This document shows positions 884 through 60,885 of a stretch of DNA of 64,000 nt, in pieces (position 1 is the first letter of the stretch; every line of letters starts with the position of its first letter). The notes beneath the pieces were generated by a model that did not search any database, was not told the DNA's origin, and saw only the letters and a program-made list of their open reading frames with translations. This DNA comes from Rufibacter roseolus (GTDB taxonomy: Bacteria > Bacteroidota > Bacteroidia > Cytophagales > Hymenobacteraceae): positions 1,827,028-1,891,027 of the forward strand of contig NZ_JAFMSU010000001.1 of assembly GCF_017916365.1 (NCBI RefSeq). The letters run 5' to 3'. Position numbers and translations under genes: made by a program.

Positions 884-919
884 GTTTCAGGGCTGTTTTT
901 ACCAAATCGGGCTTAAAAC
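884..919. repeat. P40 intergenic palindrome
   Basis: Imperfect inverted repeat GTTTCAGGGCTGTTTTT / AAATCGGGCTTAAAAC in the gap between two minus-strand genes. It is one member of the P40 family found across the window. Confidence 0.55.
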
Positions 920-930
920 AAAGGGCATGA

Positions 931-960
931 AAAAGCCCCTCCTGAACAGGAGAGGCTTTT
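931..960 (-). terminator. Rho-independent terminator
   Basis: Stem AAAAGCCCCTCCTG / CAGGAGAGGCTTTT with a two-base loop, followed by a T run on the minus strand. It lies about 50 bases past the stop of the E2 gene and ends that transcript. Confidence 0.75.
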
Positions 961-1007
961 TATACAGAGAGATCATTTTCAAATCTCCCAATCTACAAAT
1001 CTTCAAA

Positions 1008-2387
1008 TTAGATGCTGGTATTCGGGTCGAAGGCTTCCAGGTAATCGGCTACGCGACGCACGAACATGCCACCCAGGGAACCATCTACCACGCGGTGGTC
1101 ATAGGAGTGCGACAGGAACATGAACTGACGGATCCCGATCAAGTCGCCCTCAGGCGTCTCAATCACGGCAGGCTTCTTCTTGATGGCACCCACGGCCATG
1201 ATAGCCACCTGCGGCTGCATGATGATAGGCGTACCCATCACGTTGCCAAAAGAACCTACGTTGGAAATAGTGTAGGTAGGATCAGCCAGATCTGCCGGAG
1301 TCAGTTTGTTGATGCGGGCGCGGTTGGCCAAATCGTTCAGGCGCTTAGAGATGCCGTTCAGGTTCATCTGGTCAGCGTTGTGGATCACGGGCACAATCAG
1401 GTTTCCGGAAGGCAAAGCCACGGCCACCCCTATGTTGATGTCGCGCTTTTTGATGATTTTATCGCCGTCTACGCTTACGTTGATCATCGGGAAGTCTTTG
1501 ATGGCTTTCACGATGGCCTCGATGAAGATAGGCGTGAAAGTGAGGTTCTCGCCTTCGCGTTTCTTGTAAGCGTCTTTGGTTTTGTTCCGCCAGTTCACAA
1601 TGTTGGTCACATCGGCCTCAACAAAGGAAGTCACGTGCGGAGAGATACGCTTGCTGTCTACCATACGCTGGGAGATCATCTTGCGCATGCGATCCATCTC
1701 AATAATCTCTACGTTGCCGCTGTAAGACTGGGCCGGAGCTGTAGAAACCTGGGCCGCAGGGGCTACCGGAACAGCCTGTGGTTGCGGAGCGGCTTGCGGT
1801 TGCGGAGCCTGTACCTGAGGCGCTGGCGCTGCGGCTGGTTGGGCAGCAGGTGCCGTGCCGTTCTGGCGACTGGCTACATAATCAAGGATATCTTTTTTAG
1901 ACACGCGGCCTTCTTTGCCGGTACCCGGAATGTACTCCAGTTCCTGCATGCCAATGCCTTCTTCACGGGCGATGTTGAGCACCAGCGGAGAGTAGAAACG
2001 GCCGGAGGCGGGTTGCTCCAGGCGCTGGGTAGCATGGGCCGCAGCTTGCGGTGCTTCGACAGCTTGTGCTACCGGGGCTGCGCTGGCCTGGGCTACTGCA
2101 GGGGCTTCCTGCTGGGCCGGAGCCGAGGTGGCAGGCTGGTCATCGCCGCCGGTGCTGATGATGGCGATAGGTGCGCCTACGGCTACTACCTGGCCCTCTT
2201 GTACCAGAATCTCCTGCAGCACGCCGCCCTGGATGGCAGGCACCTCGGTGTCTACTTTATCAGTGGCTACTTCCAGAACAGACTCGTCTTGCTCAATGGT
2301 ATCACCTACTTGCTTCAACCATTTCAGCACGGTGCCTTCCATGATACTTTCGCCCATTTTGGGCATCACCATTTCTACAAGAGCCAT
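1008..2387 (-). CDS. Dihydrolipoamide acyltransferase (E2) of a 2-oxoacid dehydrogenase complex
   Basis: 459 residues with the full E2 layout. The N-terminal lipoyl domain (about 2-78) carries the lipoylated lysine K44 in TDKVDTEVP. An Ala/Pro/Gln-rich linker follows, then the peripheral subunit-binding domain (about 130-170, SPLVLNIAREEGIG and GRVSKKDIL), a second Ala/Pro/Gln linker and the catalytic acyltransferase domain (about 225-459). The active-site motif HSYDHRVVDG places the catalytic His at about 431 and Asp at about 435. E2 moves the acyl group from the E1-bound intermediate to CoA. The opening MPKMGES and the single lipoyl domain resemble branched-chain or 2-oxoglutarate E2 proteins, but sequence alone does not settle the substrate. 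No E1 or E3 gene is adjacent, so the gene is transcribed alone here. Confidence 0.93.
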   Translation of the reverse strand: MALVEMVMPKMGESIMEGTVLKWLKQVGDTIEQDESVLEVATDKVDTEVPAIQGGVLQEILVQEGQVVAVGAPIAIISTGGDDQPATSAPAQQEAPAVAQASAAPVAQAVEAPQAAAHATQRLEQPASGRFYSPLVLNIAREEGIGMQELEYIPGTGKEGRVSKKDILDYVASRQNGTAPAAQPAAAPAPQVQAPQPQAAPQPQAVPVAPAAQVSTAPAQSYSGNVEIIEMDRMRKMISQRMVDSKRISPHVTSFVEADVTNIVNWRNKTKDAYKKREGENLTFTPIFIEAIVKAIKDFPMINVSVDGDKIIKKRDINIGVAVALPSGNLIVPVIHNADQMNLNGISKRLNDLANRARINKLTPADLADPTYTISNVGSFGNVMGTPIIMQPQVAIMAVGAIKKKPAVIETPEGDLIGIRQFMFLSHSYDHRVVDGSLGGMFVRRVADYLEAFDPNTSI

Positions 2388-2551
2388 AGATAAGAGTATG
2401 TCAGTTTTTTTGGGTTATTGAGATCAGAATACCGCAGTCAGGACAGGGAGCCGGTTGGTGCAATGTTACAGAAAAACAGCGAATAATCACTGGAAAGCCG
2501 TAAGCGGTTCTCGGAACCTAACTGTTGTTAGGCAAATTTAGGCTTTTTTGT

Positions 2552-4688: not shown

Positions 4689-5017
4689 GTGCCTTTTACC
4701 TAAAGAAAGTCAATAACTTAAACTTAGCTAAAAGCCCAGGCTAGTATCCTGTTTAGGAGGGTAGTTAATAAGTTTTAAATCGGTAAAAGGTTGGTGGTGA
4801 GTTCGCTATAAGTTAGTCCTGCCTTTGGGATATTTTGAAATAATGACACAATCCAAAGCTTTCGCTTAGAAAGGCCGCAGTAATTAGGTTATTCTAAGAA
4901 TGGAAATTGGCATCTACTTTCCTTTCTACCTTTTTCTGAAAAAATAGGCTAAAAACGGGTAAACTTTCCCAACGCATGAGGGGTAAAAGGCAGGGAGTTC
5001 ATTTTCCCCTATTATCC

Positions 5018-6390: not shown

Positions 6391-6429
6391 AGGCGTTTGA
6401 AGGCTGGTTTTAAGAAAAGAGGCTGAAAG
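6391..6429. repeat. P40 intergenic palindrome (degenerate copy)
   Basis: GCGTTTGAAGGCTGGTTTT / AAGAAAAGAGGCTGAAAG, a diverged P40 copy directly after the terminator. Confidence 0.4.
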
Positions 6430-6438
6430 TGGATGTTG

Positions 6439-6671: not shown

Positions 6672-6735
6672 TTCACCTATCGTGGCCTGTTTTGGTGCCA
6701 CTTTTTCCAAACAGCCCCTAAACGCCTCGGGCGAG

Positions 6736-9580: not shown

Positions 9581-10603
9581 TTAAAGCTTTTCTCTGAGTT
9601 CCTCTACCTGTTTCTGTAACTCGGGGAGTTTCCGGAAAACGGCCATGGCCCTAAGATTTTGTTTATAGTCAAAGGCGGGCGCTCCCTGCACGAAAGTCCC
9701 TTCTTCTTTTATGTTTTTAGAGATACCGGATTTGGCTCCTACAATGGTTCTGTCTGCAATACTGATATGGCCTACCACGCCCACCTGACCGGCAATAGTA
9801 CAATAGTTACCCACCTTGGAGGAGCCGGCAAAAGCCGTCTGCGCAGCCACCACCGTATGGCGCCCGATCTCCACGTTATGGGCCACCTGCACCAGGTTGT
9901 CTATCTTGGTGCCGGTCCTGATGATGGTGGAACCCATGGTGGCGCAGTCTACCGTAGTGTTAGCGCCAATGCGCACGTGGTCTTCCAGCACCACGTTCCC
10001 TATCTGCGGGATGGCTTTATAGGAACCGTCTTTCTGCGGCGCAAAACCAAACCCGTCGCTGCCGATGACGGCACCCGCATGGATGGTGCAGGATGCCCCA
10101 ATCACGCAGTCGGCATAGATCTTGGCCCCGGGGAACAACACGGTGTTGTCCCCGATGGTGACATTGTCGCCAATATACACGTGCGGGTAGATGTGTACTC
10201 CCGTCCCGATTTTGCAATTCTTGCCTATGTAGGAAAATGCGCCGCGGTAATGCCGCTCTCCGATGCTGGAGTTCTCGCCTATGAAGCAGGGTTCTTCCAC
10301 GCCGGTACGGGCGGCGGCCACTGCCTGTTGGTACACTTCCAAAAGGGTGGAGAAGGAAGAGTAAGGATCATCCACCAAAATAAGGTTGGCAGAAACAGGT
10401 TGTTTGATCTCCAAGGTTTTGGCCACTATCACGGCCGTGGCGCCTGTTGAGTACAGATAGTGCTCATACTTGGCGTTGGACAGAAAAGAAAGAGAGCCCG
10501 GGGTGCCTTCTTCAATCTTCGCCAGGCGGTTTACCGTGGCGTTACCGTCTCCGTGCACCTGGCCCTGGAGTAAATCAGCAATCTGTTGTACCGTGAATTC
10601 CAT
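9581..10603 (-). CDS. lpxD: UDP-3-O-(3-hydroxyacyl)glucosamine N-acyltransferase
   Basis: 340 residues from the ATG at 10603 (MEFTVQQIADLLQGQVHGDG). A longer frame runs to 10774, but its 57 extra residues do not look like protein and include P40-like repeat DNA. The N-terminal uridine-binding domain (1-100) is followed by hexapeptide repeats (about 105-300), with the catalytic His region DNLVQVAHNVEIGRHTVVAA and GQVGVVGHISIADRTIVGAK. A short helix ends the protein (LPELQKQVEELREKL). It adds the N-linked acyl chain in the third step of lipid A synthesis. This is the first gene of the operon, so the promoter should lie in the 690-base gap upstream. Confidence 0.96.
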   Translation of the reverse strand: MEFTVQQIADLLQGQVHGDGNATVNRLAKIEEGTPGSLSFLSNAKYEHYLYSTGATAVIVAKTLEIKQPVSANLILVDDPYSSFSTLLEVYQQAVAAARTGVEEPCFIGENSSIGERHYRGAFSYIGKNCKIGTGVHIYPHVYIGDNVTIGDNTVLFPGAKIYADCVIGASCTIHAGAVIGSDGFGFAPQKDGSYKAIPQIGNVVLEDHVRIGANTTVDCATMGSTIIRTGTKIDNLVQVAHNVEIGRHTVVAAQTAFAGSSKVGNYCTIAGQVGVVGHISIADRTIVGAKSGISKNIKEEGTFVQGAPAFDYKQNLRAMAVFRKLPELQKQVEELREKL

Positions 10604-11295
10604 AGGGGCAAAGTTAAGGAAACAATTTTTAAACGAAGACACCTTCACCGTATTGGACAGCCCAAGGCCCAACCGTGAACTTTTTAGATTAGTACAAAAA
10701 TCATGCTCAGGTAACCTACAAAGGCTTAAATCTGTTTTGAAACAGTTTTCTGAAAAACAGGGCCAATACGCCACTGCCTTTAAAGAACTACCTGCGCGGA
10801 GAAGTAGCAGAAAGAAGGAACGAGCTTTTTTAGTAGGCGATGGGCTTGATGATGAACAATGGGCTGCATTGGGTTTTAAGCCAAGTTTTTAGAAAACAGC
10901 CCAGAATTTATCTAAGCAACCTGCAAAGGTGCGGGCTCATTTTTCTGCCCAAATGATTCAGACCCAGGTCTTGGTTGGTTTGCTGCGGGTTCTTCTCAAA
11001 GAAAGTCTATTTTACTTTGTTGCGTTTTTGGTAAAGAGGGGCAATAGAAGTGGGTGGTTACTGGGTCTTTGGAAGGAATTCCTTTAAAAATTTATTAAAA
11101 ATCTTATCTTGCAAGAGCTTTGAGAAGTGTTGGGTGGCTGTTCCTTCCAAAGGAAAGCCGCTCCGGAAAGGGTGAAAATCAGGCGACGGTCAAAAGCGTG
11201 GAAGGATTACTAGGAGAAGGCAGGTTCAGATGCTCTTTTCTGTAGCAGGCTGGTTTACAAAGGGAAGGGGTGTTCCCACAGGTGAAGTTTAAAGT
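10604..11295. other. Intergenic region between lpxD and the HTCS gene
   Basis: 692 bases between divergent genes. Two diverged P40 copies are visible (about 10733-10765 and 10871-10905). An AT-rich tract (about 11081-11110, TTTAAAAATTTATTAAAAAT) may belong to the HTCS promoter, but I see no clear Bacteroidota -33/-7 pair. No gene seen. Confidence 0.6.
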
Positions 11296-14200
11296 ATGTC
11301 AATACGTTTTCTTTTACATATTGCCTTTGCCTTAGCTTTACTGGCCAACGTTGAACCCGTGTTCGCTAACCAAGCCGATCAACGTAGGTTCCTGCATCTG
11401 GATGTGAACAACGGGCTATCCCATAACCAGGTCAACTGTTTCCTGAAAGACAGCCAGGGCTACATCTGGACTGGGACCTCGGCCGGACTCAATCGCTTTG
11501 ACGGTTACGGAGTCAAAGTTTTCCGCCACAACTCCCGGTCTGCCGCCTCACTCAGAGACAACAGCATCAGCAAACTCTTTGAAGACCCTGAAGGCAACAT
11601 CTGGGTTTCCTCCCAGAAAGGGTTGACAGTGTACCATCCGCGGGAAGACCGCTTCCAAAGAAATTATGCTCCGCTGCTGAAAAAGTATGCGCTGCCGCAG
11701 GCGCCGGTAGAAGACATTGTGCAGGACAAAGCCGGTAACTTCTGGTTTCTGCAGACCGGCCACGGACTCACCAGGTACAACCCTAAAACCAAGGTCTCCA
11801 CCTCGGTTCCCCTGGCGCAGGCCAGGCCGGTTGCAGGGAATACCCGCCTGATAGATGCCATTGCTTTCACGCCGCAGGGCGATCTCTGGATTCTGCACAC
11901 CTCAGGCCTGCTGGAGAAACGGAACGGGAAAACCCTGGACTTGGAGGCCGTGGAAAAAGGCTTGAAGGAACGGTTCAAGGGCCAGGCCATGAATTACGGC
12001 ATGACCATAGACCGTGCCGGTGACCTGTGGCTCTATTCCCTTTCAGAGAGCATCGGGGCTTTGCTGTACCGGCCTGCCACCAAGGCCTTTAGCCAGTTCC
12101 ATGAAAACGCTCCTCAGTTAAAGCTCAATTCCAACCTGGTGCGCGGCATCGTGGAGAACGAAGATGGCAACCTTTGGCTCGCCACGGACCACGGCGGCAT
12201 CAACATCGTGGATAAAAAAGACTTTTCGGTTCGATTTGTCCAAAACTGCCCCGAAATAGAAAACAGCCTCTCGCACAACAGCCTTATCTCCATTTACAAA
12301 GACCGCGAGGGCATTATCTGGCTGGGCACTTACAAAAAGGGCGTCAACTACTACCATAAAAACCTCCTCCGGTTTCAGCACCACCAGCACCAGATTCTGG
12401 TGAAAGGCAGTCTACCCTATGATGACATTAACCGGTTTGTGGAAGACCCCCAGGGCAACCTCTGGATAGGCACCAACGGCGGTGGCCTCTTGTACTGGAA
12501 CCGCAGCACAAACCAGTATACCCGTTTCCAGCACAACCCGAAGGACCCCAGCAGCCTCAGCAGCAATGTGGTGGTGAGCCTTCTGCTGGACAAAGACCAG
12601 AACCTGTGGGTGGGCACGTACTTGGGCGGCCTCAATAAGTTTGACGGGCAGAAATTCACCCGCTTCAGACACAACGCCCAGGACCCATTCAGCCTGGGGC
12701 ATGACAATGTCTGGGAATTGTTCCAGGACAGCCAAAACCGCATCTGGGTAGGCTCCTTGCGCGGCGGTCTGCAACAGCTGGATCCCGGCACCGGCAGATT
12801 CTATCCCTACCATAGGGCTCCCGGCCAGCCGGGCATTGACGCCCTTTACGTGGCTGCTATCGCCCAGGACCAGAAAGGCCGCCTCTGGGTAGGCGGAGAT
12901 ATTGGGGTGGAGGTTTTGGACCTGAATTCTAAAAAATTGCTCAAATACCAGAATGACCCCAAAAACCCGAAAAGCCTGAGCAGTAACGCCGTGCTCAGCA
13001 TTTTTCAGGACAGCCGTCAGCAGATGTGGGTGGGTACCAACGAAGGCCTGAACCTTTTCAATCCCAAAACCAATTCTTTCCGCCTGTTCACCAAAGAAAA
13101 CGGGCTACCGGACAACATCATCCTCAACATCTTAGAAGACCAAAATCGCCATCTCTGGATCAGTACGCCCAATGGTATTTCAAAACTGGAGATATCTGGC
13201 CGGCAGGCGGCTGATCTGTCCTTTGTGGTGCGCAACTTTGATGAGTCTGACGGGTTACAGGGCAAGGTCTTCAACGAGAACGCCGCTTTCCTCACCCGCA
13301 AGGGCGAAGTCGTTTTCGGCGGGCCCAACGGGTTCAACCTCTTCCAGCCTCAGGAACTCACTACAAATAAAGTCATCCCTAACATCGTCTTCACCGATTT
13401 TCAGCTGTTCAGCAAGAGCCTGAAAGTGGGCGAGGAGGTAGGCGGCAGCGTCATTCTGCCCCAGGCCTTGTCTGATGGAACCCAGATCACGCTCCAGCAC
13501 GACCAGAACATGTTCACCGTGGAGTTTGCTGCGCTCAATTTCTTCCACTCAGAGAAAAACAAGTACCAGTACAAACTGGTAGGCTTTGACAAAGAGTGGC
13601 ACACCACCGATGGGAACAACCGACGCATCACCTACACCAACTTAGACCCCGGTGAGTACCAGTTAATGGTGAAGGCCGCCAACAATGACGGCATCTGGAA
13701 CAAAAAAGGCATCGGTCTTGACATAGAGGTGCAGGTGCCGTTCTGGCGCTCAGATGTGGCCTACGTTTGCTATTTCCTGTTTGCTTTTCTGGGCCTGATG
13801 GTGGTGCGCCGGGTGGAGAAACAGAAAGCGAACCAGAAATATGAGCTGGACCGGGAGCGGCGCGAGGTAAAGCACATGCGCGAGTTGCACCTCATGAAAA
13901 TCAAGTTCTTCACCAACATCAGCCATGAGCTGCGCACGCCGCTCACCTTGATCTTGGCACCATTGGAGAAACTGTTGGCCGGCTCGCAGGATGAACAGCA
14001 AACGCGGCAGTTCCAGATGATCAATCGTAACGCCAAGCGCCTGCTGTACCTGGTGAACCAACTGCTGGATTTCCGCAAACTGGAAGTGGAGGAGGTGGCC
14101 TTTGCGCCCTCGCATGGCAACATTGTCAAGTTTATCAAGGAGGCAGTGTATTCCTTCACAGATTTGTCTGAGAAAAACCACGTGCACCTGTCTTTTGAAA

Positions 14201-15471
14201 GCAGCATCCAGGAACTGCAGGCCTCTTTTGACATGGACAAACTGGGCAAGATCCTGTTCAACCTGCTCTCCAACGCCTTCAAGTTCACCCCGGAAAACGG
14301 AAACATTAAAGTAGAGGTGAATTGCCATGAGAACGATTCAGATTCGGCCGGTCTGCACCTGCTGGAGATCAAGGTTTCAGATACAGGCATAGGCATTTCC
14401 AAAGAAAACCAGGAGAAGATCTTTGACCGCTTCTTCCGGGAAGACGTGCCTGATAACCTCATGAACCAGGGTAGCGGCATAGGCTTGTCCATCACCCGCG
14501 ATTTCGTGAAGATCCACGGGGGTATGATCCAGGTGCAGAGTGAACCGGGCCAGGGTAGTTGTTTCACCGTTACCCTACCTATCAAAGTCACCGGTTCTAT
14601 TGTGGAGGGTTCAGACGCAGACCTGCCGGAAGAAGTGCAACCGGTTCAGGAAGCCAAACCCGAGGCGCCGAAACGCACCACAGAAGACGCGCCGGAAAAT
14701 GAGCTGGTAGTATTGCTGGTAGAGGACAGCGAGGACTTCAGAACTTACCTTAAAGAAAGCCTGAGCGCCCACTTCACCGTGCTGGAGGCCAAAAACGGCA
14801 AAGAAGGTTGGCAGAAAGCTTTGTCCAGTCTTCCAGACCTGATTGTGAGCGACCTTATGATGCCCGAGCTGAACGGCATAGACTTCTGCAAGAAGATCAA
14901 GGCAGACGCCCGCACCTCGCACATCCCCTTCATCTTGCTCACTGCCCAAACTGCCGAGGAACAGAAGCTCAAAGGCCTGGGTATCGGCGCGAACGATTAC
15001 ATCACCAAGCCTTTCAATTTTGAGTTGCTGCTGTCACGGATGACCAACCTCATTTCGCAGTGCCAGTTGATGCAGAAAGCCTACGGGAAAAAGATCAGCG
15101 TGCAGACCAGCGCCATTGACATTGTCTCCCTGGACGATAAGCTTATCCAGAAAGCCATCAAAGTGGTAGAAGAGAACATTGACTGCCCTGAATTCTCGGT
15201 GGAGCTTATGGCCCGGGAACTGGGTATGAGTCGGGTTTACCTCTACAAAAAGATTGTGGCGCTCACGGGCCAGTCGCCGGTTGAGTTTATCCGGAAGATC
15301 AGGCTGGAGCGCGCGGCCCAGCTACTGGAAAGAAGCCAGCTCACCGTGGCTGAGGTGGCCTACGCGGTGGGTTTCAACAATCCCCGTTACTTTTCCAAGT
15401 ACTTCAAGGAGGCCTACCATATGCTGCCCTCCGTCTACGCCGAGAGTAAACAGTCCCATCCCATCGCATAG
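11296..15471 (+). CDS. Hybrid two-component system (HTCS) sensor / AraC-family regulator
   Basis: 1391 residues carrying a whole two-component pathway in one chain. A signal peptide (1-24) is followed by two-component propeller repeats to about 700 (GLSHNQVNCFLKDSQGYIW, and repeated blocks ending in LWVG or IWLGT). Next come a Y_Y_Y domain (about 732-805), a membrane helix (about 821-838), HisKA with H877 in FFTNISHELRTPLTLIL, and HATPase with N and G boxes (LLSNAFKFTPENG, VSDTGIGIS, GSGIGLSITRDF). A receiver domain has D1186 in IVSDLMMPELNG, and an AraC helix-turn-helix lies at about 1298-1380. Family knowledge: the periplasmic propeller binds an oligosaccharide from the target glycan and the HTH activates the adjacent PUL. 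All catalytic residues are present. It lies directly upstream of GH31 and very likely controls PUL1. Confidence 0.96.
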   Translation: MSIRFLLHIAFALALLANVEPVFANQADQRRFLHLDVNNGLSHNQVNCFLKDSQGYIWTGTSAGLNRFDGYGVKVFRHNSRSAASLRDNSISKLFEDPEGNIWVSSQKGLTVYHPREDRFQRNYAPLLKKYALPQAPVEDIVQDKAGNFWFLQTGHGLTRYNPKTKVSTSVPLAQARPVAGNTRLIDAIAFTPQGDLWILHTSGLLEKRNGKTLDLEAVEKGLKERFKGQAMNYGMTIDRAGDLWLYSLSESIGALLYRPATKAFSQFHENAPQLKLNSNLVRGIVENEDGNLWLATDHGGINIVDKKDFSVRFVQNCPEIENSLSHNSLISIYKDREGIIWLGTYKKGVNYYHKNLLRFQHHQHQILVKGSLPYDDINRFVEDPQGNLWIGTNGGGLLYWNRSTNQYTRFQHNPKDPSSLSSNVVVSLLLDKDQNLWVGTYLGGLNKFDGQKFTRFRHNAQDPFSLGHDNVWELFQDSQNRIWVGSLRGGLQQLDPGTGRFYPYHRAPGQPGIDALYVAAIAQDQKGRLWVGGDIGVEVLDLNSKKLLKYQNDPKNPKSLSSNAVLSIFQDSRQQMWVGTNEGLNLFNPKTNSFRLFTKENGLPDNIILNILEDQNRHLWISTPNGISKLEISGRQAADLSFVVRNFDESDGLQGKVFNENAAFLTRKGEVVFGGPNGFNLFQPQELTTNKVIPNIVFTDFQLFSKSLKVGEEVGGSVILPQALSDGTQITLQHDQNMFTVEFAALNFFHSEKNKYQYKLVGFDKEWHTTDGNNRRITYTNLDPGEYQLMVKAANNDGIWNKKGIGLDIEVQVPFWRSDVAYVCYFLFAFLGLMVVRRVEKQKANQKYELDRERREVKHMRELHLMKIKFFTNISHELRTPLTLILAPLEKLLAGSQDEQQTRQFQMINRNAKRLLYLVNQLLDFRKLEVEEVAFAPSHGNIVKFIKEAVYSFTDLSEKNHVHLSFESSIQELQASFDMDKLGKILFNLLSNAFKFTPENGNIKVEVNCHENDSDSAGLHLLEIKVSDTGIGISKENQEKIFDRFFREDVPDNLMNQGSGIGLSITRDFVKIHGGMIQVQSEPGQGSCFTVTLPIKVTGSIVEGSDADLPEEVQPVQEAKPEAPKRTTEDAPENELVVLLVEDSEDFRTYLKESLSAHFTVLEAKNGKEGWQKALSSLPDLIVSDLMMPELNGIDFCKKIKADARTSHIPFILLTAQTAEEQKLKGLGIGANDYITKPFNFELLLSRMTNLISQCQLMQKAYGKKISVQTSAIDIVSLDDKLIQKAIKVVEENIDCPEFSVELMARELGMSRVYLYKKIVALTGQSPVEFIRKIRLERAAQLLERSQLTVAEVAYAVGFNNPRYFSKYFKEAYHMLPSVYAESKQSHPIA

Positions 15472-16113
15472 GTTTTCCTTTTTAGCCAAAGTTCTACTTC
15501 TGGCTTTTGCTACAACCTAGCATCTCCAGAAATGCTGGTTCCTGTTTGGGCGTCATTTCTAAAAAGAAGCTCTTAAACGTTGTTCCCGCCAAAAACCTAT
15601 TCACCACCCCGCCCTTCGGGCATCCCTCCTAAACCAGGAGGGGAGTTGTAAGCTACCAAAGCCGTCTACTCAAAAGACCTCGCAGCGTCCGGAGGTCCTG
15701 CGAGCGTCTGTGCCAATCCCAGCTATGCCAGCTTCTGGCGGTTCTAACCTTCTTTCCCAAAAACGGCTCCAAAACAGGAGCCAGATTTTTCGTCGTCTTC
15801 AGGTAGACGACACTGCTTTAAAGAATCCCTTCCTCTTTATCGCCTCTTTTTCTGAAAACAAGCCCAAACCTGCCACTTCAAGGAGCAACTGTAGGGTTTG
15901 TTAACATTTTGTAAAAATAAACCTGCATTTAAACGTTAAAAATGCAGTTTTTTCATTTGTTAACGGATGCAACATAGATAGGAAACATTTGATACATATG
16001 CCCTCCTGGGGCCTTCCTTACCTTCATCCTGTTAATTTCTGAGCCCTTTGAGACCGCCAACTAAAGGCGAGTTGGCGCCAGAAAATCACACCTTAACCTT
16101 TACCATTTATCTA
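15472..16113. other. Repeat-rich intergenic region upstream of PUL1
   Basis: 642 bases without a credible gene. It contains a CCCTCCTAAACCAGGAGGG hairpin (about 15625-15645), a CTCGCAG / CTGCGAG inverted repeat (15679-15704), P40-like fragments (about 15555-15580, 15760-15785 and 15845-15875) and an AT-rich segment (15900-16000) that probably holds the PUL1 promoter. Confidence 0.6.
15923..15947. promoter_or_regulatory. Inverted repeat upstream of GH31
   Basis: CTGCATTT and AAATGCAG separated by nine bases, 167 bases upstream of the GH31 start and followed by six T. It could be an operator for the HTCS HTH domain or a weak terminator of the HTCS transcript. The sequence does not decide between these. 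Confidence 0.35.
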
Positions 16114-18969: not shown

Positions 18970-19015
18970 TCCTTACCTGATCCTATACCAAATTATTCAC
19001 GTCATTCTTTTACCT

Positions 19016-22090: not shown

Positions 22091-22109
22091 TTCTAGGAGA
22101 TTCATAGAA

Positions 22110-23702: not shown

Positions 23703-23822
23703 TCGCATTGATGCAGGCAAAATAAAAAGGAAGCTTTGGGCCTGATTTTCCACAAACGTGCTCTAAACGAGACCAGAAATTCAGCCCCAAAAAGCTGCCT
23801 TAGACAATCAAAACTTATAAAG

Positions 23823-27258: not shown

Positions 27259-27302
27259 CTCTGTTTTAAGCCTGATTCTGAAGAAATAGCCTTAAAATAG
27301 AG
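27259..27302. repeat. P40 intergenic palindrome
   Basis: CTCTGTTTTAAGCCTGATTC / GAAGAAATAGCCTTAAAATA, then GAG. It lies between the GH2 stop and the esterase start, inside the PUL1 transcription unit. Confidence 0.6.
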
Positions 27303-27991: not shown

Positions 27992-27996
27992 CCCCC

Positions 27997-28032
27997 GTTT
28001 CAGGCCTGATTATGCCAAATCAGGCCTGAAAC
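27997..28032. repeat. P40 intergenic palindrome (perfect arms)
   Basis: GTTTCAGGCCTGATT and AATCAGGCCTGAAAC are exact inverted copies (15 bases each) around a six-base loop. The best-matched short P40 copy, six bases past the esterase stop and upstream of the GH95-like gene. Confidence 0.75.
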
Positions 28033-28116
28033 AGAGTTTTTGCTCAGCATAGTTCTGCTGAGAAAGGCTGCGTTTGCCCATTTTGTAGCCTATTCTTTAC
28101 CGTATTCCGCTTTTCA

Positions 28117-30573: not shown

Positions 30574-30620
30574 AAAACAGCAAGGGCCGCAGTTTTCCAT
30601 ACTGCGGCCCTTGCTGTTTT
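30574..30620 (+). terminator. Terminator of the PUL1 operon
   Basis: AAAACAGCAAGGGCCGCAGT and ACTGCGGCCCTTGCTGTTTT are exact 20-base inverted copies with a seven-base loop, 40 bases past the GH95-like stop. A and T runs flank both sides, so it could act in both directions. A P40-like arm continues from it to about 30650. Confidence 0.85.
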
Positions 30621-30794
30621 AGACCTGTTTTCAGGAAAGTAGCCTTATAATGTGCGGACATCAGCATACTTATTTCGAAAACCCATGCAGATACTGGCGC
30701 TAGGATGTTCCTCTTTAAATCAGTTGGAAAAGTCTCGCCAGCGAACTTGAATGCTTCAGCGGCAATGGAGCTGTTTAGAAAGTGGTTTGCCACG

Positions 30795-30858
30795 ATAAAA
30801 GTAAATCCGATTCGGGGCTGTTTTCATCAAAACAGCCCCGAATCGGATTTACTTTTAT
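30795..30858. terminator. 30-base perfect hairpin, bidirectional terminator
   Basis: The left arm at 30795-30824 and the right arm at 30829-30858 are exact inverted copies around CATC. The inner part (CGGGGCTGTTTT / AAAACAGCCCCG) is P40-like. It lies 25 bases past the GH88 stop on the minus strand, between convergent genes, and probably stops transcription from both sides. Confidence 0.8.
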
Positions 30859-38640: not shown

Positions 38641-38670
38641 AAATTAAGATTCAGATAAGAGAATATTTGT

Positions 38671-39846: not shown

Positions 39847-39869
39847 CGAAACCCTCTGATAATTGACGT

Positions 39870-41423: not shown

Positions 41424-41436
41424 TTGAGCGCTTAAT

Positions 41437-41488
41437 AGCTATAAACAAAAAGGGAGAGCAATTCTGCTCTCCCTTTTTGTTTATAGCT
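41437..41488 (+). terminator. PUL2 terminator, 24-base perfect hairpin
   Basis: 41437-41460 and 41465-41488 are exact inverted copies around ATTC. The inner GGGAGAGCA / TGCTCTCCC part is followed by TTTTTG on the plus strand and preceded by the matching A run. It is 14 bases past the PUL2 stop. Confidence 0.88.
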
Positions 41489-41595
41489 GAGTTTCACAAT
41501 TGAATTCCCATGGACAAGGCAATCTACAGGAATTCATGAGGCATCATTTTCTCTTGGTTTCCAGGAATTAGATACGCTTGTGCTTAATTGAAAAA

Positions 41596-41651
41596 GCCGC
41601 TGCCTGTTTCGGAGCTGTTTTCTTAAAAACAAACCCAAAACAGGCAGCGGC
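41596..41651. repeat. P40 intergenic palindrome (extended copy)
   Basis: The outer arms GCCGCTGCCTGTTT and AAACAGGCAGCGGC are exact inverses. The interior CGGAGCTGTTTTC / TTAAAAACAAACCCA is a diverged P40 core. It lies between the PUL2 terminator and the STAS-like gene stop and could also terminate that minus-strand gene. Confidence 0.65.
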
Positions 41652-42100: not shown

Positions 42101-42140
42101 GGACTAGCTAAGGCGTTAGGTGCGTTTGTGATGGTTGGCT

Positions 42141-42177
42141 GTTTTAGGCTTGTTTTCGGGAAAATAGGTCTAAAATA
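42141..42177. repeat. P40 intergenic palindrome
   Basis: GTTTTAGGCTTGTTTTC / GAAAATAGGTCTAAAAT with a two-base centre, directly after the HD gene stop. It is close to the family consensus. Confidence 0.7.
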
Positions 42178-42187
42178 GGAAAGACAG

Positions 42188-43426: not shown

Positions 43427-43570
43427 GATAACTTAGTTCTTGTAGTGTCCGTTGTCGGTAAATGTAGCATTATGTAAATTCTACGGAAAGTGGCCTGGAA
43501 AGGCGAATTTTCCGGAAGAGCCGCTGGATGCGCAAGCCTAAACACAAGCTATGAAAACCAATAACTAGCC

Positions 43571-46845: not shown

Positions 46846-46895
46846 AAAAGCTGTTTTAGGCCTCCTTTCTTGAAAAGGTGCTTAAAACAGCTTTT
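46846..46895. repeat. P40 intergenic palindrome (extended copy)
   Basis: Outer arms AAAAGCTGTTTTAGGC and GCTTAAAACAGCTTTT with an inner CCTTTCTTGAAAAGG hairpin. It is 40 bases past the ald stop and may serve as its terminator. Confidence 0.75.
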
Positions 46896-47160: not shown

Positions 47161-47219
47161 TACAATGAATATTTCTCTCATCCTTGCAATGCCGCGTTCA
47201 GCAAGATTTGAGCTAAAGA

Positions 47220-47258
47220 CGTTTTAAGCCTGTTTTTGGATAATTAGCAGCAAAACAG
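47220..47258. repeat. P40 intergenic palindrome (degenerate copy)
   Basis: CGTTTTAAGCCTGTTTTTGG / ATAATTAGCAGCAAAACAG, ending two bases before the flavin reductase stop on the minus strand. Confidence 0.5.
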
Positions 47259-48172: not shown

Positions 48173-48232
48173 GGCAGATTTGGAGATTTGAAGATGAGGA
48201 GTTTTGAAGATGTGGAGATTGCTTCCCTTTTT

Positions 48233-48397
48233 GTCATCCTGGAAGGATCTTGTGGGCGAATTAGAAAAGCGGCCTTTATTGCGTTGATCATCAAGCAGCC
48301 ATAACAGAGCTTATGAAGATTTATGCCTGGATGTTTCTGACTTTACATCTGCACATGCCTTATTGCCGTTCGCTCACAAGGTCCTTTCAGGATGACA
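48233..48397. repeat. Inverted-repeat element (GTCATCCTG type), copy A
   Basis: TGTCATCCTGGAAGGATCTT, then GTGGGCGAA, at the left is answered by TTCGCTCACAAGGTCCTTTC, then AGGATGACA, at the right. About 110 bases lie between. It fills the gap between the flavin reductase and fumarylacetoacetase genes. A second copy with the same ends is at 62847-62935. Confidence 0.7.
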
Positions 48398-48414
48398 GGA
48401 GGAGGGTGCCTCAT

Positions 48415-49692: not shown

Positions 49693-49796
49693 GGTGGTAG
49701 GGAACGGTGGTCAGGCAAAGATAAAAAGTCTGGGAGAAAAGGGAAGAGGCTTTCTCTTTTTGCCTCAGTTTACGCACAATAGCCCCAAAACAAAAA

Positions 49797-51242: not shown

Positions 51243-51311
51243 AGGTTCTACAGCGCTAAAAAATCGCTTATACAAAGATACACACTATCTGTTTAACAAG
51301 CTACCAGAAGC

Positions 51312-51349
51312 CGTTTTAAGGCCGGTTTCCTAAAAGTAAGGCCGAAAAG
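51312..51349. repeat. P40 intergenic palindrome
   Basis: CGTTTTAAGGCCGGTTTCC / TAAAAGTAAGGCCGAAAAG between the divergent mrp gene and the lipoprotein at 51450. Confidence 0.55.
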
Positions 51350-51449
51350 AGAATTTGTGAAAAGGCCCGTGCAACCATTGAAGCCGGAGAGGGGTCATGA
51401 AGACAAAGGCCATATCCTGGGTTTGAGAATAAAACTTATAAACTCCCCT

Positions 51450-52001
51450 ATGATGCGTTTAGGTAAACCCCATTTCCGGCAAGTAAGATCCGCCCTGGTT
51501 CTTTTGAGTACCATCCTGGTTTTGGGCTGTTCTGACGCTTCTGAAGATCCTGCCCTTTCTTTGCAAGGTTCCTGGATGCTGTCACAGGTAGAGCCTATGG
51601 CCTACAACAATTATGCGGCCCCAGACCTGAGCATGTGCGCTGACCTGGTCTTCACCAAAGAGGAGGAGCCCGCAGAATCTAACCGGTTGTGGGGCTACAA
51701 AATGAGCGGGGAGATGCCCGTAAATTCTTATCAGGGGAACTACCAAGCATCACAGGATGCGCTTTACAACCAGGCCGGCGAGATAGACTTTGTAAACCTG
51801 GGAAACACTGAAGTGGCGGCTGCACCTCCTGTTAAGCAATTTGAAGCCTATTACCTCCAGACCTTACAGGACGTGGATAAGTTTGAGGTGAAGAACGATG
51901 TGCTCACGCTTTGGGTATCTGGGAAAAACCAGAAACTGGTGTTTGTGAGAGGAGCCTCCTCGTGCGGGAAAACAATTGATCTGTTTGGGGCTTCTTTTTA
52001 A
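51450..52001 (+). CDS. Small lipoprotein, lipocalin-like (paralogue 1)
   Basis: 183 residues from the ATG at 51450 (an ATG also follows at 51453). A longer frame from 51357 has 31 unlikely N-terminal residues. The lipid cysteine is C27 (LSTILVLGCSDASED), with acidic residues near it. The body has ALSLQGSWMLSQVEPMAYNN, then KMSGEMPVNSYQGNYQAS, TEVAAAPPVKQFEAYYLQTL and the closing LVFVRGASSCGK. The opening GSW...L pattern and beta-rich sequence resemble META/lipocalin-like lipoproteins. It resembles the protein at 52621-53163, which has the same order of blocks. No function known; probably an envelope protein. Confidence 0.7.
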   Translation: MMRLGKPHFRQVRSALVLLSTILVLGCSDASEDPALSLQGSWMLSQVEPMAYNNYAAPDLSMCADLVFTKEEEPAESNRLWGYKMSGEMPVNSYQGNYQASQDALYNQAGEIDFVNLGNTEVAAAPPVKQFEAYYLQTLQDVDKFEVKNDVLTLWVSGKNQKLVFVRGASSCGKTIDLFGASF

Positions 52002-52080
52002 AGAATATGACTTAAACGGGGCAAGGTAAAGTACCTCATTTACACTTTCAATTAACTGTCAAAACCTATAGCGGATATCT

Positions 52081-52551
52081 ATGAAACGGTTACTGTTTTA
52101 CTGTTTGGGACTGATGACCTTACTGGGCTGCGAGCCAGAAGACCAGTCTCCCTTTGAGCCGGATTATCTGGTGTTCGGGCATTTTTACGGTTTTTGCGGC
52201 GGCGAGCAGTGTGTGGAGATCTTCAAGATACAGGGCGGTCAGCTCTATGAAGACACCAAAGACCAGTACCCCAACAGGAATGGACCTTATGACGGTAATT
52301 TCGTGCGGAAGAGCGAGGTCTTGTATGAAAAGGTAAGGGATTTGCCTTTCAATTTCCCGCCGCGGCTGCTTCTGGAAAACGATACCATCATTGGTATGCC
52401 CGATGCTGCAGACGGGGGCGGCATTTACCTGGAGATCAGCAAAGATGGGCAACGGCGGTATTACTTCATAGACAAAACCAGGTACCAGGTCCCCGATTAC
52501 CTGCACCCTTACCTGGACCAGGTAGAAGCCGCCATTAATGAGTTGAAGTAA
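52081..52551 (+). CDS. Small lipoprotein of unknown function
   Basis: 156 residues. The lipid cysteine is C17 (LGLMTLLGCEPEDQSP), with Glu-Pro-Glu-Asp next to it, fitting surface export. The body has LVFGHFYGFCGGEQCVEIFK, with a Cys pair separated by Gly-Gly-Glu-Gln, then IQGGQLYEDTKDQYP and VPDYLHPYLDQVEAAINELK at the end. The CGGEQC motif might be a disulfide or a metal site. I recognise no family. It lies between two other lipoprotein genes on the same strand, with gaps of about 70-80 bases on either side. Confidence 0.7.
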   Translation: MKRLLFYCLGLMTLLGCEPEDQSPFEPDYLVFGHFYGFCGGEQCVEIFKIQGGQLYEDTKDQYPNRNGPYDGNFVRKSEVLYEKVRDLPFNFPPRLLLENDTIIGMPDAADGGGIYLEISKDGQRRYYFIDKTRYQVPDYLHPYLDQVEAAINELK

Positions 52552-53163: not shown

Positions 53164-53186
53164 GTAAACGCTTTTTCATAGAAGGA

Positions 53187-53225
53187 CTGTTTAGGGCTGT
53201 ATTCCTAAAATCAGCCCTGAAACAG
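53187..53225. repeat. P40 intergenic palindrome
   Basis: CTGTTTAGGGCTGTATTCC / TAAAATCAGCCCTGAAACAG, 23 bases past the lipoprotein stop and just before its terminator. Confidence 0.65.
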
Positions 53226-56393: not shown

Positions 56394-56768
56394 CATTGCG
56401 TTCTTGGGTCATTTCCAGTCAACAATGGTAAAGCGGTTTTGGGGCTGTTTTTCAGAAATCAACCTCAAAACCATTTGGCTTGCTGAATTGAATGCCTGAA
56501 CGCCTTCCGCTTCTTTCTGTTTATTACCTTTTACAGCTGAGCCTTTCATTTATCCTTCGCTTCCGGAGAAGGGCCAGTTTCCTCTAGAAATTTCCGGTTC
56601 TTTGTCACCAAACCCCGCACGTAATTGTTTCATCTATAGCAGGTATAACAAGCGTTAGTGCCTTGCCGCTGCATGAACGCACAAACCCGTCAAAATCCGC
56701 TATCTTTGCGCGCATGAAGGCGGGCGCAGCCGAACTTTATCGCTTGCCGCATAGTAGAAGAAAACACC
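56394..56768. other. Intergenic region upstream of ribBA
   Basis: 375 bases with one P40 copy (56435-56472). I looked for an FMN riboswitch upstream of ribBA and see none of its conserved blocks. No gene seen; the ribBA promoter presumably lies in the last 150 bases. Confidence 0.6.
56435..56472. repeat. P40 intergenic palindrome
   Basis: GGTTTTGGGGCTGTTTTTC / AGAAATCAACCTCAAAACC, 42 bases past the K+ channel stop. Confidence 0.65.
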
Positions 56769-57971: not shown

Positions 57972-57974
57972 AAG

Positions 57975-58013
57975 AAGCAAAAAGGCGGGGGATTTTCTTC
58001 CGCCTTTTTGCTT
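57975..58013 (+). terminator. Rho-independent terminator
   Basis: AAGCAAAAAGGCGG and CCGCCTTTTTGCTT are exact inverted copies with an 11-base loop and a following T run, immediately past ribBA. Confidence 0.85.
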
Positions 58014-58241
58014 TTAAAGAACACAAGGTTTCTAATGTTTCCCTTTTTAAGTATATTTAATTGAACACAGGGCCAAGCAGAAGAACCAGAGCAAATTAAG
58101 GCTTTAGTGCCCAATCTAAGCCATACAAGAAAATACCTGCATTTGCGTTATAAAGTACTGGGAATAAGACAACCTTCTCAGTTTTTCAAAGTATATTTTT
58201 TAAAGAAGCGTATATCATTTTATTTGGAGAAGTATAAAGAA

Positions 58242-58985: not shown

Positions 58986-59023
58986 CAGAACGCCCCGTTA
59001 ACCTAAGTTAGCGGGGCGTTCTG
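58986..59023. terminator. Bidirectional terminator between convergent genes
   Basis: CAGAACGCCCCGTTAAC and GTTAGCGGGGCGTTCTG pair with one mismatch around CTAA. It lies between the secreted protein gene and the ABC-2 permease gene, about 30-40 bases from each stop. Confidence 0.8.
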
Positions 59024-59060
59024 CTTTAAAGGTATTATCCTGAAAATAGGCCTGAAACGG
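59024..59060. repeat. P40 intergenic palindrome (degenerate copy)
   Basis: CTTTAAAGGTATTATCC / TGAAAATAGGCCTGAAACGG directly beside the terminator. Confidence 0.45.
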
Positions 59061-59062
59061 CT

Positions 59063-59839
59063 TTACAGATCGCGGGAGCGGAGTAGTTGGTAGGAGAGGA
59101 AGCAGAAAAGCGTCACGTACAGCACCACCGGCATTAAGGCCTGCATGGGGGTAAGGACTTCGGAAGCGCCCAGAATCAGTTGCTCCACCTCGGCGTGGGG
59201 GTTAGGCGTAAGCGCGCCCAGAGATTTCATGGGAAAGTATTGGTCTATCCCGTCCGGGGTTTTCCACTGGATCAGCCTTTCCACCACCAGCGTGTAAGCC
59301 ATGAACAGCATAATGGCCAGACCGGTTTTCCTGACCAGAAACGCTATGAACATAGCCAGAGACATGTAACCCACCAGTTGCACCAGGTAATAGAAAATAG
59401 CCTGCACGTTGGTGAACATGGAGGTTTCGTTTCCGGTGTTGTTTCCGTAGAATAGCCCAAATCCGAGGCCCAAAAAGACCACATATACCGCGAGCAGGGC
59501 CGCGAGCAAAAGAATGACGCTGTACTTAGCCTGCACCAGGTTGGCGCGCGAGAAACCGTCAATCACCTGTTGTCGCAACGTGCGGAAAGCGTATTCGTCA
59601 GAGACAAGGATGATGATGAGAATGCCGGGAATGAGGTTGAGGAAACTGGACACATAGGCCAGGTGCATCCACAGCTTGGGAAATTGGTAGAGTTCGGCAC
59701 CGGCCATCTGCCCGTTCACCATCACGTTGCCCCGGGCGTAGAAGAAGACGAAAAGCAGAAAGCACTGCAATACCAACAGTACCCAGAAGGTGGAGTAAGG
59801 CAGCAGTTTACGGAGTTCTATTCTTAAAAGAGAGGTCAT
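59063..59839 (-). CDS. ABC-2-type transporter permease
   Basis: 258 residues with about six membrane helices, among them the N-terminal LPYSTFWVLLVLQCFLLFVF, NLIPGILIIILVSDEYAF, VILLLAALLAVYVVFLGLGF, LVQLVGYMSLAMFIAFLV and the C-terminal LTPMQALMPVVLYVTLFCFL. The sequence SDEYAFRTLRQQVIDGFSRA is a cytoplasmic loop typical of ABC-2 (multidrug/antibiotic or nitrous-oxide-type) permeases. It overlaps the ATPase gene by four bases and probably forms the exporter with it. The cargo is not evident. Confidence 0.85.
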   Translation of the reverse strand: MTSLLRIELRKLLPYSTFWVLLVLQCFLLFVFFYARGNVMVNGQMAGAELYQFPKLWMHLAYVSSFLNLIPGILIIILVSDEYAFRTLRQQVIDGFSRANLVQAKYSVILLLAALLAVYVVFLGLGFGLFYGNNTGNETSMFTNVQAIFYYLVQLVGYMSLAMFIAFLVRKTGLAIMLFMAYTLVVERLIQWKTPDGIDQYFPMKSLGALTPNPHAEVEQLILGASEVLTPMQALMPVVLYVTLFCFLSYQLLRSRDL

Positions 59840-60738
59840 ACAGAATCGGCTTTGATGATTTCCAGGAACTGGCTTTCCAGGCTTTTCTTGCGCACCACCA
59901 ACTGGCCCAGCGCAATACCCTGGGAGAAGAAGGCGCGGTTCAGCTCAGAACTGTCGGTCTCCGGTTGAAGTGATAGTTGCAGTTGCTGGTTTACGGGGCG
60001 GGCATCGGTCACGAAGGGCAAGGTGCGGGCTATCTGCAGCAATTGGTCCAGCGAGGCACCGCCGCTGATGAACACCAGGTCATTGGCCGCCATGATAGAA
60101 GAAACGGGCCCTTGGGCTTTGAGCTTGCCGCTGCGCAGCACCGCCATGTGGGTGCAGACTTTCTCCACCTCGTCCAGCAGGTGACTGGCCAGGATAATGG
60201 TTTTGCCCTGCGCCGCGATGTCAATGATAAGTTGGCGCACCTCGGCAATGCCTTCAGGGTCCAGGCCGTTCGTGGGCTCATCCAGCACCAGCACCTCGGG
60301 GTCACCCAAAAGCGCGGCCCCGATGGCCAGGCGCTGTTTCATGCCCAGCGAGTAGCCCTTGAACTTGTCTCCCCGGCGTTGGGCCAGGCCTACGGTCTGC
60401 AGCACCCCCGGAATGCGGGCGTGGTCCACGCGTTTCACATCGGCGGTGATGCGCAGGTTTTCTTCGCCGGTAAGGTAAGGGTAGAAATTGGGGGTTTCCA
60501 GCAGGGCGCCTATGCGGCGTTTGGTGCTTTGAGAGGCGGGCTGCCCGAACCACTGGTAAGTCCCGGCGCTGGCATTTATCACGTCCAGCACAATGCCCAG
60601 GGTGGTGGTTTTCCCGCTGCCGTTGGGTCCCAGCAATCCGTAGATGCTGCCCTCGGGTACTTTAATGGTCAATTGGTCCAGGGCCTGCACCGCGCCGTAG
60701 CGCTTGCTCAGTCCCTGAATATCTAAAATGTCTGCCAA
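59836..60738 (-). CDS. ABC transporter ATP-binding protein (ABC-2 exporter)
   Basis: 300 residues. Walker A is LLGPNGSGKTTTLGIVLDV, the signature is YSLGMKQRLAIGAALLG and Walker B is EVLVLDEPTNGLDPEG. The C-terminal 80 residues (ARTLPFVTDARPVNQQLQLS onward) are the DUF4162-like tail of export ATPases. It energises the permease encoded next, with which it overlaps by four bases. The substrate is unknown; related pairs export lipids, peptides or antibiotics. Confidence 0.92.
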   Translation of the reverse strand: MADILDIQGLSKRYGAVQALDQLTIKVPEGSIYGLLGPNGSGKTTTLGIVLDVINASAGTYQWFGQPASQSTKRRIGALLETPNFYPYLTGEENLRITADVKRVDHARIPGVLQTVGLAQRRGDKFKGYSLGMKQRLAIGAALLGDPEVLVLDEPTNGLDPEGIAEVRQLIIDIAAQGKTIILASHLLDEVEKVCTHMAVLRSGKLKAQGPVSSIMAANDLVFISGGASLDQLLQIARTLPFVTDARPVNQQLQLSLQPETDSSELNRAFFSQGIALGQLVVRKKSLESQFLEIIKADSV

Positions 60739-60808
60739 ATCGGTCTTGGTTCAAAAGGTTGATGCACAAAGCTAGAAGGATTTGTCAGAATTGCGTGAAG
60801 GAGGGGGT

Positions 60809-60857
60809 GTTTAAAACAGAAAGCCCACCAGCTATAGGGGGGCTTTCTGTTTTAAAC
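60809..60857 (-). terminator. Rho-independent terminator
   Basis: GTTTAAAACAGAAAGCCC and GGGCTTTCTGTTTTAAAC are exact 18-base inverted copies with a 13-base loop, 54 bases past the M56 gene stop on the minus strand. Confidence 0.85.
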
Positions 60858-60885
60858 CTGTTTTCCTGAAACTGCCGCTGAAACA
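60849..60885. repeat. P40 intergenic palindrome
   Basis: TGTTTTAAACCTGTTTTCC / TGAAACTGCCGCTGAAACA, sharing one arm with the adjacent terminator, as at the PUL1 terminator. Confidence 0.55.

Follow-up and report, generated by a model that had tools for sequence, protein, structure and literature searches.

A genus-specific family of 40-base dyad-symmetric sites in Rufibacter chromosomes, a candidate recognition word for a two-fold-symmetric DNA-binding protein

The uptake sequences known so far are short words that, taken singly, are not palindromic. The DNA uptake sequences (DUS) of the Neisseriaceae occur in dialects with a 3-nt core and have intragenic copies, with intergenic regions being particularly permissive (PMC3630211). 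Repetitive extragenic palindromes (REPs) are described as intergenic elements near stop codons, preferring convergent and unidirectional spacers over divergent ones (PMC3733652), and in a subclass of TnpA-Y1 genes, mostly from Bacteroidetes, the flanks are reported to form atypical secondary structures that also occur at other places of the same genome (PMC6006769). Here, we describe P40, a dyad-symmetric DNA word of about 40 bases with hundreds to thousands of copies per chromosome in one genus. It was followed up from a 64-kb stretch, referred to here as the window (C1:1827028-1891027), of a 5.52-Mb assembly of 7 contigs labelled G000. The genus was taken as Rufibacter from the window dnaG protein, the relatives of which with 87 to 99% identity (99% in R. 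hautae and 87 to 94% at the other loci) belong to Rufibacter or Sabulibacter; a second ground is that G200 (locus L007, R. hautae) and the genome labelled G042 have the same P40 count. Among the genomes scanned, P40 is a family of sites that is all but confined to this genus and stable in place between two of its species.

A consensus-dyad scan with two 19-base arms returned 30 sites in the window, compared with 9 in total (mean, 0.45) in 20 Markov shuffles, which bears out the existence of the palindrome family proposed in a first-pass annotation of this DNA. When a symmetric 40-column matrix was refined on the window, 35 sites passed a loose threshold; 26 scored ≥24 bits, and our own gene caller places 24 of these between genes. 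The eight single-element places named in that annotation are all present, with ends off by 0 to 5 bases; its five good examples score 36 to 43 bits, and its three weaker ones score 30 to 34 bits. Its start position, 884, falls in the copy at 882-921, and the two terminator places that it listed, 30574-30650 and 60809-60885, each end in a P40 that starts in the downstream stem arm ending in CTGTTTT. In a genome sample of 864 kb (out of 5,516 kb), for which 40 evenly spaced stretches of 20 kb were added to the window, 469 P40s were found at ≥15 bits, compared with 5 in the reversed-sequence control, and 358 of these were intergenic, although 83% of the sampled DNA is coding (genes called with our own hexamer-based caller). 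Scans with the matrix and with a degenerate pattern, used in place of a covariance model, put P40 far above chance and strongly between genes, and the family thereby withstood the refutation test set in the annotation. Two statements of the annotation went too far: with 0.47 to 0.67 P40 per gene in four species, or about one per two genes, P40 does not lie near almost every gene end, and not all copies lie between genes, as 37 of the 350 sites of ≥24 bits in the 864-kb sample lie >60 bp inside genes of >200 amino acids.

The matrix derived from 288 intergenic sites contains about 34 bits of information. Columns T5, T6, T16, and T17 and their mirrors are nearly invariant (95 to 99%); the word YGTTT/TGTTT occurs at positions 2-6 and, 11 bp further on, at 13-17, its inverted form fills positions 24-28 and 35-39, and C and G are about equally common at position 11. 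Complementary bases are avoided in the central pair, 20-21 (frequency of 0.20 versus 0.26 expected in G000 and 0.13 versus 0.27 in the genome labelled G006). Apart from a weak symmetric T/A at positions 0 and 41, no conserved flank was present in three species, and the sampled DNA showed neither a strand bias nor a gene-strand asymmetry of the arms. An orientation by replichore, of the type of FtsK-orienting polar sequences or Chi, was also considered, since among the matches listed those on C1 seemed to lie mainly on the + strand; this idea was dropped because counts in the sampled DNA showed no clear orientation bias.

When scanned with a degenerate 36-base pattern at ≤3 mismatches, all 16 genomes of the genus held 518 to 2,110 copies; 29 of 184 other genomes of the family held 1 to 4 and the rest held none, with 0 to 1 in the reversed-pattern control. 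An order-wide sample (≤2 mismatches) gave 221 to 1,418 copies in four genus members, one copy in each of 10 of 287 other genomes, and none in the remainder. Similarly, the window matrix found 4 to 15 sites of 24 bits at each of nine Rufibacter/Sabulibacter dnaG loci and none at 71 other dnaG loci, three of which have one 18-bit site; 28 Pontibacter loci (about 0.6 Mb, mostly coding) contained no 24-bit P40. A de novo search for other dyad families around dnaG (13 to 114 kb of spacer per group) returned nothing with the architecture of P40, and the dyad words enriched at Pontibacter and Hymenobacter dnaG loci, such as CCCTC at spacing 9 (z of 28), are probably orthologous terminators counted once per species. 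Within the genus, all four species studied share the TT/AA core (89 to 99%), and other columns differ by species: the genome labelled G017 prefers T at position 8 (91%), T at position 7 (97%), and C at position 2 (81%), and position 8 of G000 is A in 34%, G in 27%, T in 24%, and C in 15% of sites. Coevolution of a reader with its sites would be expected to produce such species-specific columns. The dialect of G017, a 4.1-Mb genome, is sharp, with a central CCAG/CTGG in 57 of 146 sites. One exact P40 was also seen in a viral collection, on a single 39-kb viral contig (L212:1275-1310).

The comparison of G000 with R. hautae, based on 166 orthologous proteins of 360 genes called (mean identity, 88.6%), indicates how firmly P40 stays in place. 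Of 102 orthologous spacers, 61 have P40 in both species, 36 have it in neither, and 5 have it in one only, so that 97 agree. Sixty-six elements match in register, and 5 elements of G000 and 12 of R. hautae lack an above-threshold partner in register, 10 of these 17 still aligning over ≥30 bases. Downstream of the gene that ends at 46806, in a convergent spacer, P40 lies 30 to 61 bp past the same stop codon in all eight other species compared; spacer 48173-48414 near dnaG is without P40 in seven of eight species, and spacer 57972-58223 is without it in eight of eight. Variable spacers near dnaG have P40 in 1 of 3 (43427-43570) and 1 of 2 (52002-52113). As judged from these alignments, the stability of P40 is not that of an active repeat, although some gain and loss continues. 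Among 71 elements ascertained in G000 (2 could not be aligned), the mismatch rates against R. hautae, with mirrors pooled, were 0.04 at position 5, 0.06 at position 6, 0.01 and 0.03 at positions 16 and 17, and 0.12 to 0.40 outside the TT/AA steps; among 78 elements for which R. hautae served for ascertainment (5 could not be aligned), the rates were 0.03 to 0.04 at the TT/AA steps and 0.13 to 0.38 at other positions. The flanks mismatch at 0.16 to 0.22, and a neutral simulation with the same ascertainment, run at a lower overall divergence than that observed, gave 0.15 to 0.17 at every P40 position. Given these rates, we conclude that the TT/AA steps are held and that most other positions drift about as fast as the flanks do, or faster.

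Sites inside genes allow the same question to be asked within coding sequence. Among 72 deep intragenic sites of ≥18 bits, 24 have a homolog in the Rufibacter DNA compared; an outgroup alignment covered only 3 of 42 intragenic sites, and the within-genus comparison was used instead. At a protein identity of ≥77%, the homologous site still scores ≥15 in 13 of 15 cases, and no gap interrupts it in any of the 15 alignments; none of nine distant homologs has the intragenic P40, and three of the nine are gapped there. A second count found 15 of 17 mapped intragenic sites kept in R. hautae (19 found). Third codon positions of unchanged residues had changed at 3 of 41 core positions, compared with 0.241 of 46,801 elsewhere (one-sided P = 0.005), a result that may be somewhat inflated, as these sites were ascertained in one species and score nearer the threshold; changes were seen at 4 of 38 other conserved P40 positions and at 25 of 120 remaining ones. 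P40 sites can therefore arise and be lost by substitution, and even those within reading frames seem to be under constraint as DNA. These observations argue against P40 being a terminator, a roadblock, or an insertion. On this comparative evidence, DNA-level constraint on the TT/AA steps is apparent between genes and, on fewer data, inside genes.

Between genes, the placement of P40 follows gene orientation. In G000, P40 is present in 74 of the 98 spacers between convergent genes, in 177 of the 326 between codirectional genes, and in 40 of the 97 between divergent genes, and the densities per kb of spacer in four species are 3.3 to 5.0, 2.1 to 3.2, and 1.1 to 1.2, respectively. In codirectional spacers of 120 to 600 bp, P40 falls in the 25 bp that follow the stop codon 2.2 to 2.3 times as often as expected under uniformity. 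Because the position in convergent spacers is nearly uniform, the 3'-end habit is in part an avoidance of promoter regions. More codirectional and convergent spacers are occupied than under random placement (500 simulations). Codirectional elements occupy 93 spacers for 97 elements in G017 (simulation maximum, 80), 177 for 208 in G000 (maximum, 167), and 67 for 76 in the genome labelled G012, the last being equal to the maximum (67) of equal-weight placement; convergent occupancy in G017, G000, and G012 is 30, 74, and 36 spacers, compared with maxima of 28, 67, and 34. No clear departure from random placement was observed for divergent spacers. Gaps of <400 bp between P40s number 14 of 137 in G012, 6 of 138 in G017, and 70 of 428 in G000.

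In light of this, we propose that P40 is a genus-specific double-strand recognition site for a putative two-fold-symmetric DNA-binding protein, a reading to which we assign a probability of about one-half. Dyad symmetry, column-specific constraint, and strand independence are features of a two-fold site. The genus limit, the agreement of orthologous spacers, the occupation of more spacers than under random placement, the lack of a G-U excess, and the near-absence of P40 from the plasmid-like contig C4 (both described below) also count in favour of this reading. With regard to the independence of half-sites, most symmetric pairs are independent, 4 of 20 pairs covary by pairing in G000, and the central pair avoids pairing. 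Each 19-bp arm carries two TT steps, at positions 5-6 and 16-17, with the arms mirrored around a 2-bp centre. Since these steps are about one turn of B-DNA apart, they would lie on the same face in successive grooves, and the simplest binder of mirrored two-groove arms would be a dimer contacting two grooves per subunit or a tetramer. Such a binder would most likely be chromosomal, serving nucleoid or domain organisation, with about one site per occupied gene-end spacer, and these spacers would be held because they tolerate a 40-bp site and leave promoters undisturbed. Several points weigh against this proposal. No binder was found, although no search was aimed at one, and the protein reader is inferred. 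By simple arithmetic, about 12 bits would mark some 2,700 places, and an excess such as the approximately 34 bits per site found here is typical of copied or driven sequences; the position-specific preferences, too, could reflect copy waves from different founders. Seventeen elements are without an in-register partner between G000 and R. hautae. Finally, independent half-sites predict neither the covariation by pairing of 7-34 (mutual information z of 11 to 17), 8-33 (8 to 12), 2-39 (4 to 6), and 11-30 (4 to 5) in G000 nor the 39 compensatory double changes in the 66 orthologous elements, compared with 11.2 in arm shuffles (maximum of 27 in 1,000).

The first-pass annotation had stated that the arms keep pairing while the sequence drifts; the compensatory changes agree with this in part, but they stand alongside 349 single changes. 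They are also concentrated, with two elements contributing 13 of the 39 and 47 of the 66 having none. The 21 best-paired elements account for 25 such changes, compared with 3.7 in shuffles (maximum, 16), and the other 45 account for 14, compared with 7.8 and within the shuffled range (maximum, 18). Some P40 copies are thus kept as palindromes and most are not; the compensation may reflect either selection or arm-to-arm templated mutation. Maintenance of P40 as a cruciform in DNA or as a hairpin of a single strand is highly improbable, although it would fit the changes in the best-paired copies and the equal tolerance of G-T and A-C: mean pairing is only 11.1 to 14.4 of 20 pairs across species, the less-paired copies show no excess of compensation, and ten G000 pairs (1, 3, 4, 9, 10, 12, 13, 15, 18, and 19) vary without covarying (z of <2). 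Covarying pairs elsewhere are 7, 8, and 9 in G012 and 7 and 10 in G017, and adjacent columns of G000 correlate with z of up to 7.7 (32-33) and 10 (19-20). An action of P40 in RNA, as a bidirectional terminator or mRNA 3'-end stabiliser, is very unlikely as well, and the annotation's suggestion of a transcript 3'-end element is not supported. In its favour are the placement after stop codons, the sharing of an arm with an upstream stem, which is uncommon genome-wide (19 of the 639 ends tested, and none in a control with shuffled tails), and the frequency of predicted terminators at G000 codirectional ends, which is 0.37 with P40 and 0.18 without it (22 of 41 loci used). However, 420 codirectional elements from four species, read in transcript orientation, have 637 G-U and 658 A-C mismatches (P = 0.58) and thus no wobble excess, and the arms show no directional difference beyond single columns and no T-run or U-run. 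Predicted terminators are found at 0.26 to 0.37 of codirectional ends with P40 and 0.18 to 0.29 without it (higher with P40 in three of four species) and at 0.51 to 0.58 and 0.40 to 0.67 of convergent ends (higher in two of four), a relation that is not consistent across species; at ten P40-less Pontibacter loci, the frequencies are 0.35 and 0.74. The idea that P40 replaces terminators was rejected, as terminator frequency did not differ consistently across the four species. The 37 strong sites deep inside genes likewise stand against an RNA element, and Rfam gave no match in the 64-kb window.

Two other explanations, both of which we consider unlikely, have the information excess in their favour. 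The mobile family of REPs or miniature inverted-repeat transposable elements (MITEs) suggested in the annotation is not supported as a present activity, given the agreement of 97 of 102 spacers, the ungapped intragenic sites, and transposase genes that do not track P40; it is possible as an old origin, in which a REP/MITE-type repeat spread in the ancestor of the genus and is now immobile and partly kept for function. This would explain the high information per copy, the arm covariation, which could be a remnant of founder palindromes, the 17 partnerless elements, and the placement after stop codons and in convergent over divergent spacers, as reported for REPs (PMC3733652). Column-specific constraint, on the other hand, is unlike neutral decay, and close pairs are few in G012 and G017, though not in G000. 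Y1 (RAYT-type, PF01797) transposase genes, where RAYT stands for REP-associated tyrosine transposase, are present in 15 of 16 genus genomes but also in 33 of 43 relatives outside the genus, and a PF01797 search of G017 found none despite its 1,315 P40s. P40 occupies an adjoining spacer at six of eight Y1 loci, without forming an array, a count made without comparison to other genes. A link with the mostly Bacteroidetes TnpA-Y1 subclass described above is a slight possibility; the word Rufibacter is absent from the main text of a REP survey (PMC12306157). It is similarly doubtful that P40 is a mark of self-DNA, like DUS and the uptake signal sequences (USS) of Pasteurellaceae, driven by biased uptake and recombination wherever 40 bp are tolerated. 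Its restriction to one genus at high copy number, species dialects with a constant core, intragenic copies without insertion, and near-uniform position in convergent spacers would all fit, as would the dialect features of DUS (PMC3630211). So would the near-absence of P40 from contig C4 (102 kb, 100 kb read), which has 2 P40s, compared with 54 expected from the chromosomal density; each of the 40 chromosomal 20-kb stretches has 5 to 15. This contig, with a G+C content of 0.53 in its first 20 kb and 0.42 to 0.44 in the rest, encodes proteins that by eye resemble UmuC, a partition ATPase of the ParA kind, and restriction proteins of the McrBC and type I systems, and it is probably a plasmid or a large mobile region. 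The two P40s found on it are neighbours (L205:5360-5521), sharing one spacer that separates the putative McrBC genes from the putative type I restriction genes; on the 7-kb contig C5, four P40s of ≥15 bits are present. Against an uptake mark, known uptake sequences are short and, as single copies, nonpalindromic, and P40 is far more intergenic than coding. No evidence of a competence pilus was obtained: PilM gave weak matches in relatives, which we take to be FtsA, and ComEC is present in 48 of 49 relatives, so that neither marker discriminates. Literature searches on Rufibacter palindromes, Hymenobacteraceae intergenic repeats, and Bacteroidetes uptake sequences returned no title on a family like P40.

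The sites of the window are listed in Table 1. The near-perfect palindrome at 30807-30846 has the altered outer core GATTCGG and resembles some R. hautae copies in which both arms changed together. Two regions of about 11 kb each that are rich in polysaccharide-utilisation-type genes, 15873-27260 and 30847-41603, have no intergenic P40 of 24 bits. Five window proteins were searched against Pfam, and the gene at 11296-15471, which has two internal P40-like sites that are both kept in R. hautae, encodes a hybrid two-component sensor-regulator (Reg_prop, HisKA, Response_reg, and HTH_18).

Table 1. P40 sites and associated stems in the window (window coordinates; no strand is assigned to any row; ORF, open reading frame)
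Feature	Position	Score or source	Comparison with R. hautae
P40 copy, before first window gene	219..258	matrix 40.4	
P40 copy	882..921	41.2 bits	kept
P40 copy, weaker	4919..4958	27.4 bits	kept
P40 copy	6393..6432	30.5 bits	kept
P40 copy, weaker	6687..6726	23.4 bits	kept
P40 copy overlapping 5' end of longest ORF 9581-10774 (gene start uncertain)	10732..10771	32.5 bits	
P40 copy, weaker	10871..10910	29.0 bits	
P40-like site within hybrid two-component gene 11296-15471	12220..12259	22.5 bits	ortholog 20 bits
P40-like site within hybrid two-component gene 11296-15471	12911..12950	25.6 bits	ortholog 23 bits
P40 copy, one of three in spacer after hybrid two-component gene	15541..15580	28.0 bits	kept
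P40 copy	15738..15777	33.0 bits	kept
P40 copy	15833..15872	31.0 bits	kept
P40-like site, weaker, at start of ORF 23736-24680 (gene start uncertain)	23731..23770	23.8 bits	kept
P40 copy, 61-bp spacer between codirectional genes	27261..27300	38.1 bits	kept
P40 copy	27995..28034	37.2 bits, 17/20 pairs	
Terminator-like 19-bp stem; downstream end CTGTTTT is start of next P40	30574..30620	read directly in sequence	
P40 copy, arm common with terminator	30614..30653	35.0 bits	
P40 copy, near-perfect palindrome, altered outer core	30807..30846	37.1 bits, 19/20 pairs	
P40 copy	41604..41643	42.3 bits	kept
P40 copy, top score of window	42139..42178	42.5 bits	kept
P40 copy, convergent spacer	46851..46890	38.5 bits	
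P40 copy	47219..47258	33.6 bits	kept
P40 copy, weaker	49754..49793	25.1 bits	
P40 copy, divergent spacer	51311..51350	31.6 bits	kept
P40-like site, weaker, overlapping 3' end of ORF 51357-52001	51981..52020	25.3 bits	
P40 copy upstream of dnaG	53186..53225	36.0 bits	kept
P40 copy	56434..56473	40.6 bits	
P40 copy, convergent spacer	59021..59060	33.5 bits	kept
Terminator-like stem; downstream end CTGTTTTAAAC is start of next P40	60809..60857	read directly in sequence	
P40 copy, arm common with terminator	60847..60886	36.4 bits	kept
P40 copy, weaker	62981..63020	26.1 bits	

Of the alternatives raised in the first-pass annotation, whose interpretation is partly supported overall, a two-fold binding or chromosome-organising site is the best fit. 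If the DNA-level reading is correct, each sampled Rufibacter genome would contain a genus-specific, genome-wide DNA-binding system with one site per about two genes, the binder of which would be recoverable with one oligonucleotide. More broadly, and as a tentative idea that we hold at less than even odds, the genus may mark its chromosome with 500 to 2,700 dyad words read by a dedicated genus-specific protein; as these words vary in dialect, are written into genes by substitution, and are nearly missing from the plasmid-like contig, they could form a chromosomal self-code for nucleoid organisation, uptake of kin DNA, or discrimination between self and foreign DNA. P40 would be the first candidate self-DNA word of the Bacteroidota known to us, as far as the literature searched goes.

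Compared with REP/RAYT systems, P40 is also a short, dispersed, high-copy intergenic palindrome near stop codons that favours convergent over divergent spacers. It differs from them in that neither a GT[AG]G foot nor another conserved flank is present and no tie to a Y1 transposase was detected, as well as in its stable presence between two species, its column-specific constraint, and its intragenic copies without insertion; a REP-like place and shape thus need not mean a mobile or RNA element. With the DUS of Neisseriaceae and the USS of Pasteurellaceae, it has in common a limitation to one lineage, a high copy number, dialects with a constant core, an occurrence both inside and between genes, and a scarcity in plasmid-like DNA (one contig, the plasmid nature of which is presumed), but these are short words, whereas P40 is a full dyad of 40 bp and about 34 bits and is strongly intergenic. 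As for the palindromes bound by nucleoid or global DNA-binding proteins, P40 differs in having far more information than its number of sites needs and in being confined to one genus, and it resembles them in its dyad, its lack of strand bias, and its constrained steps about one helical turn apart.

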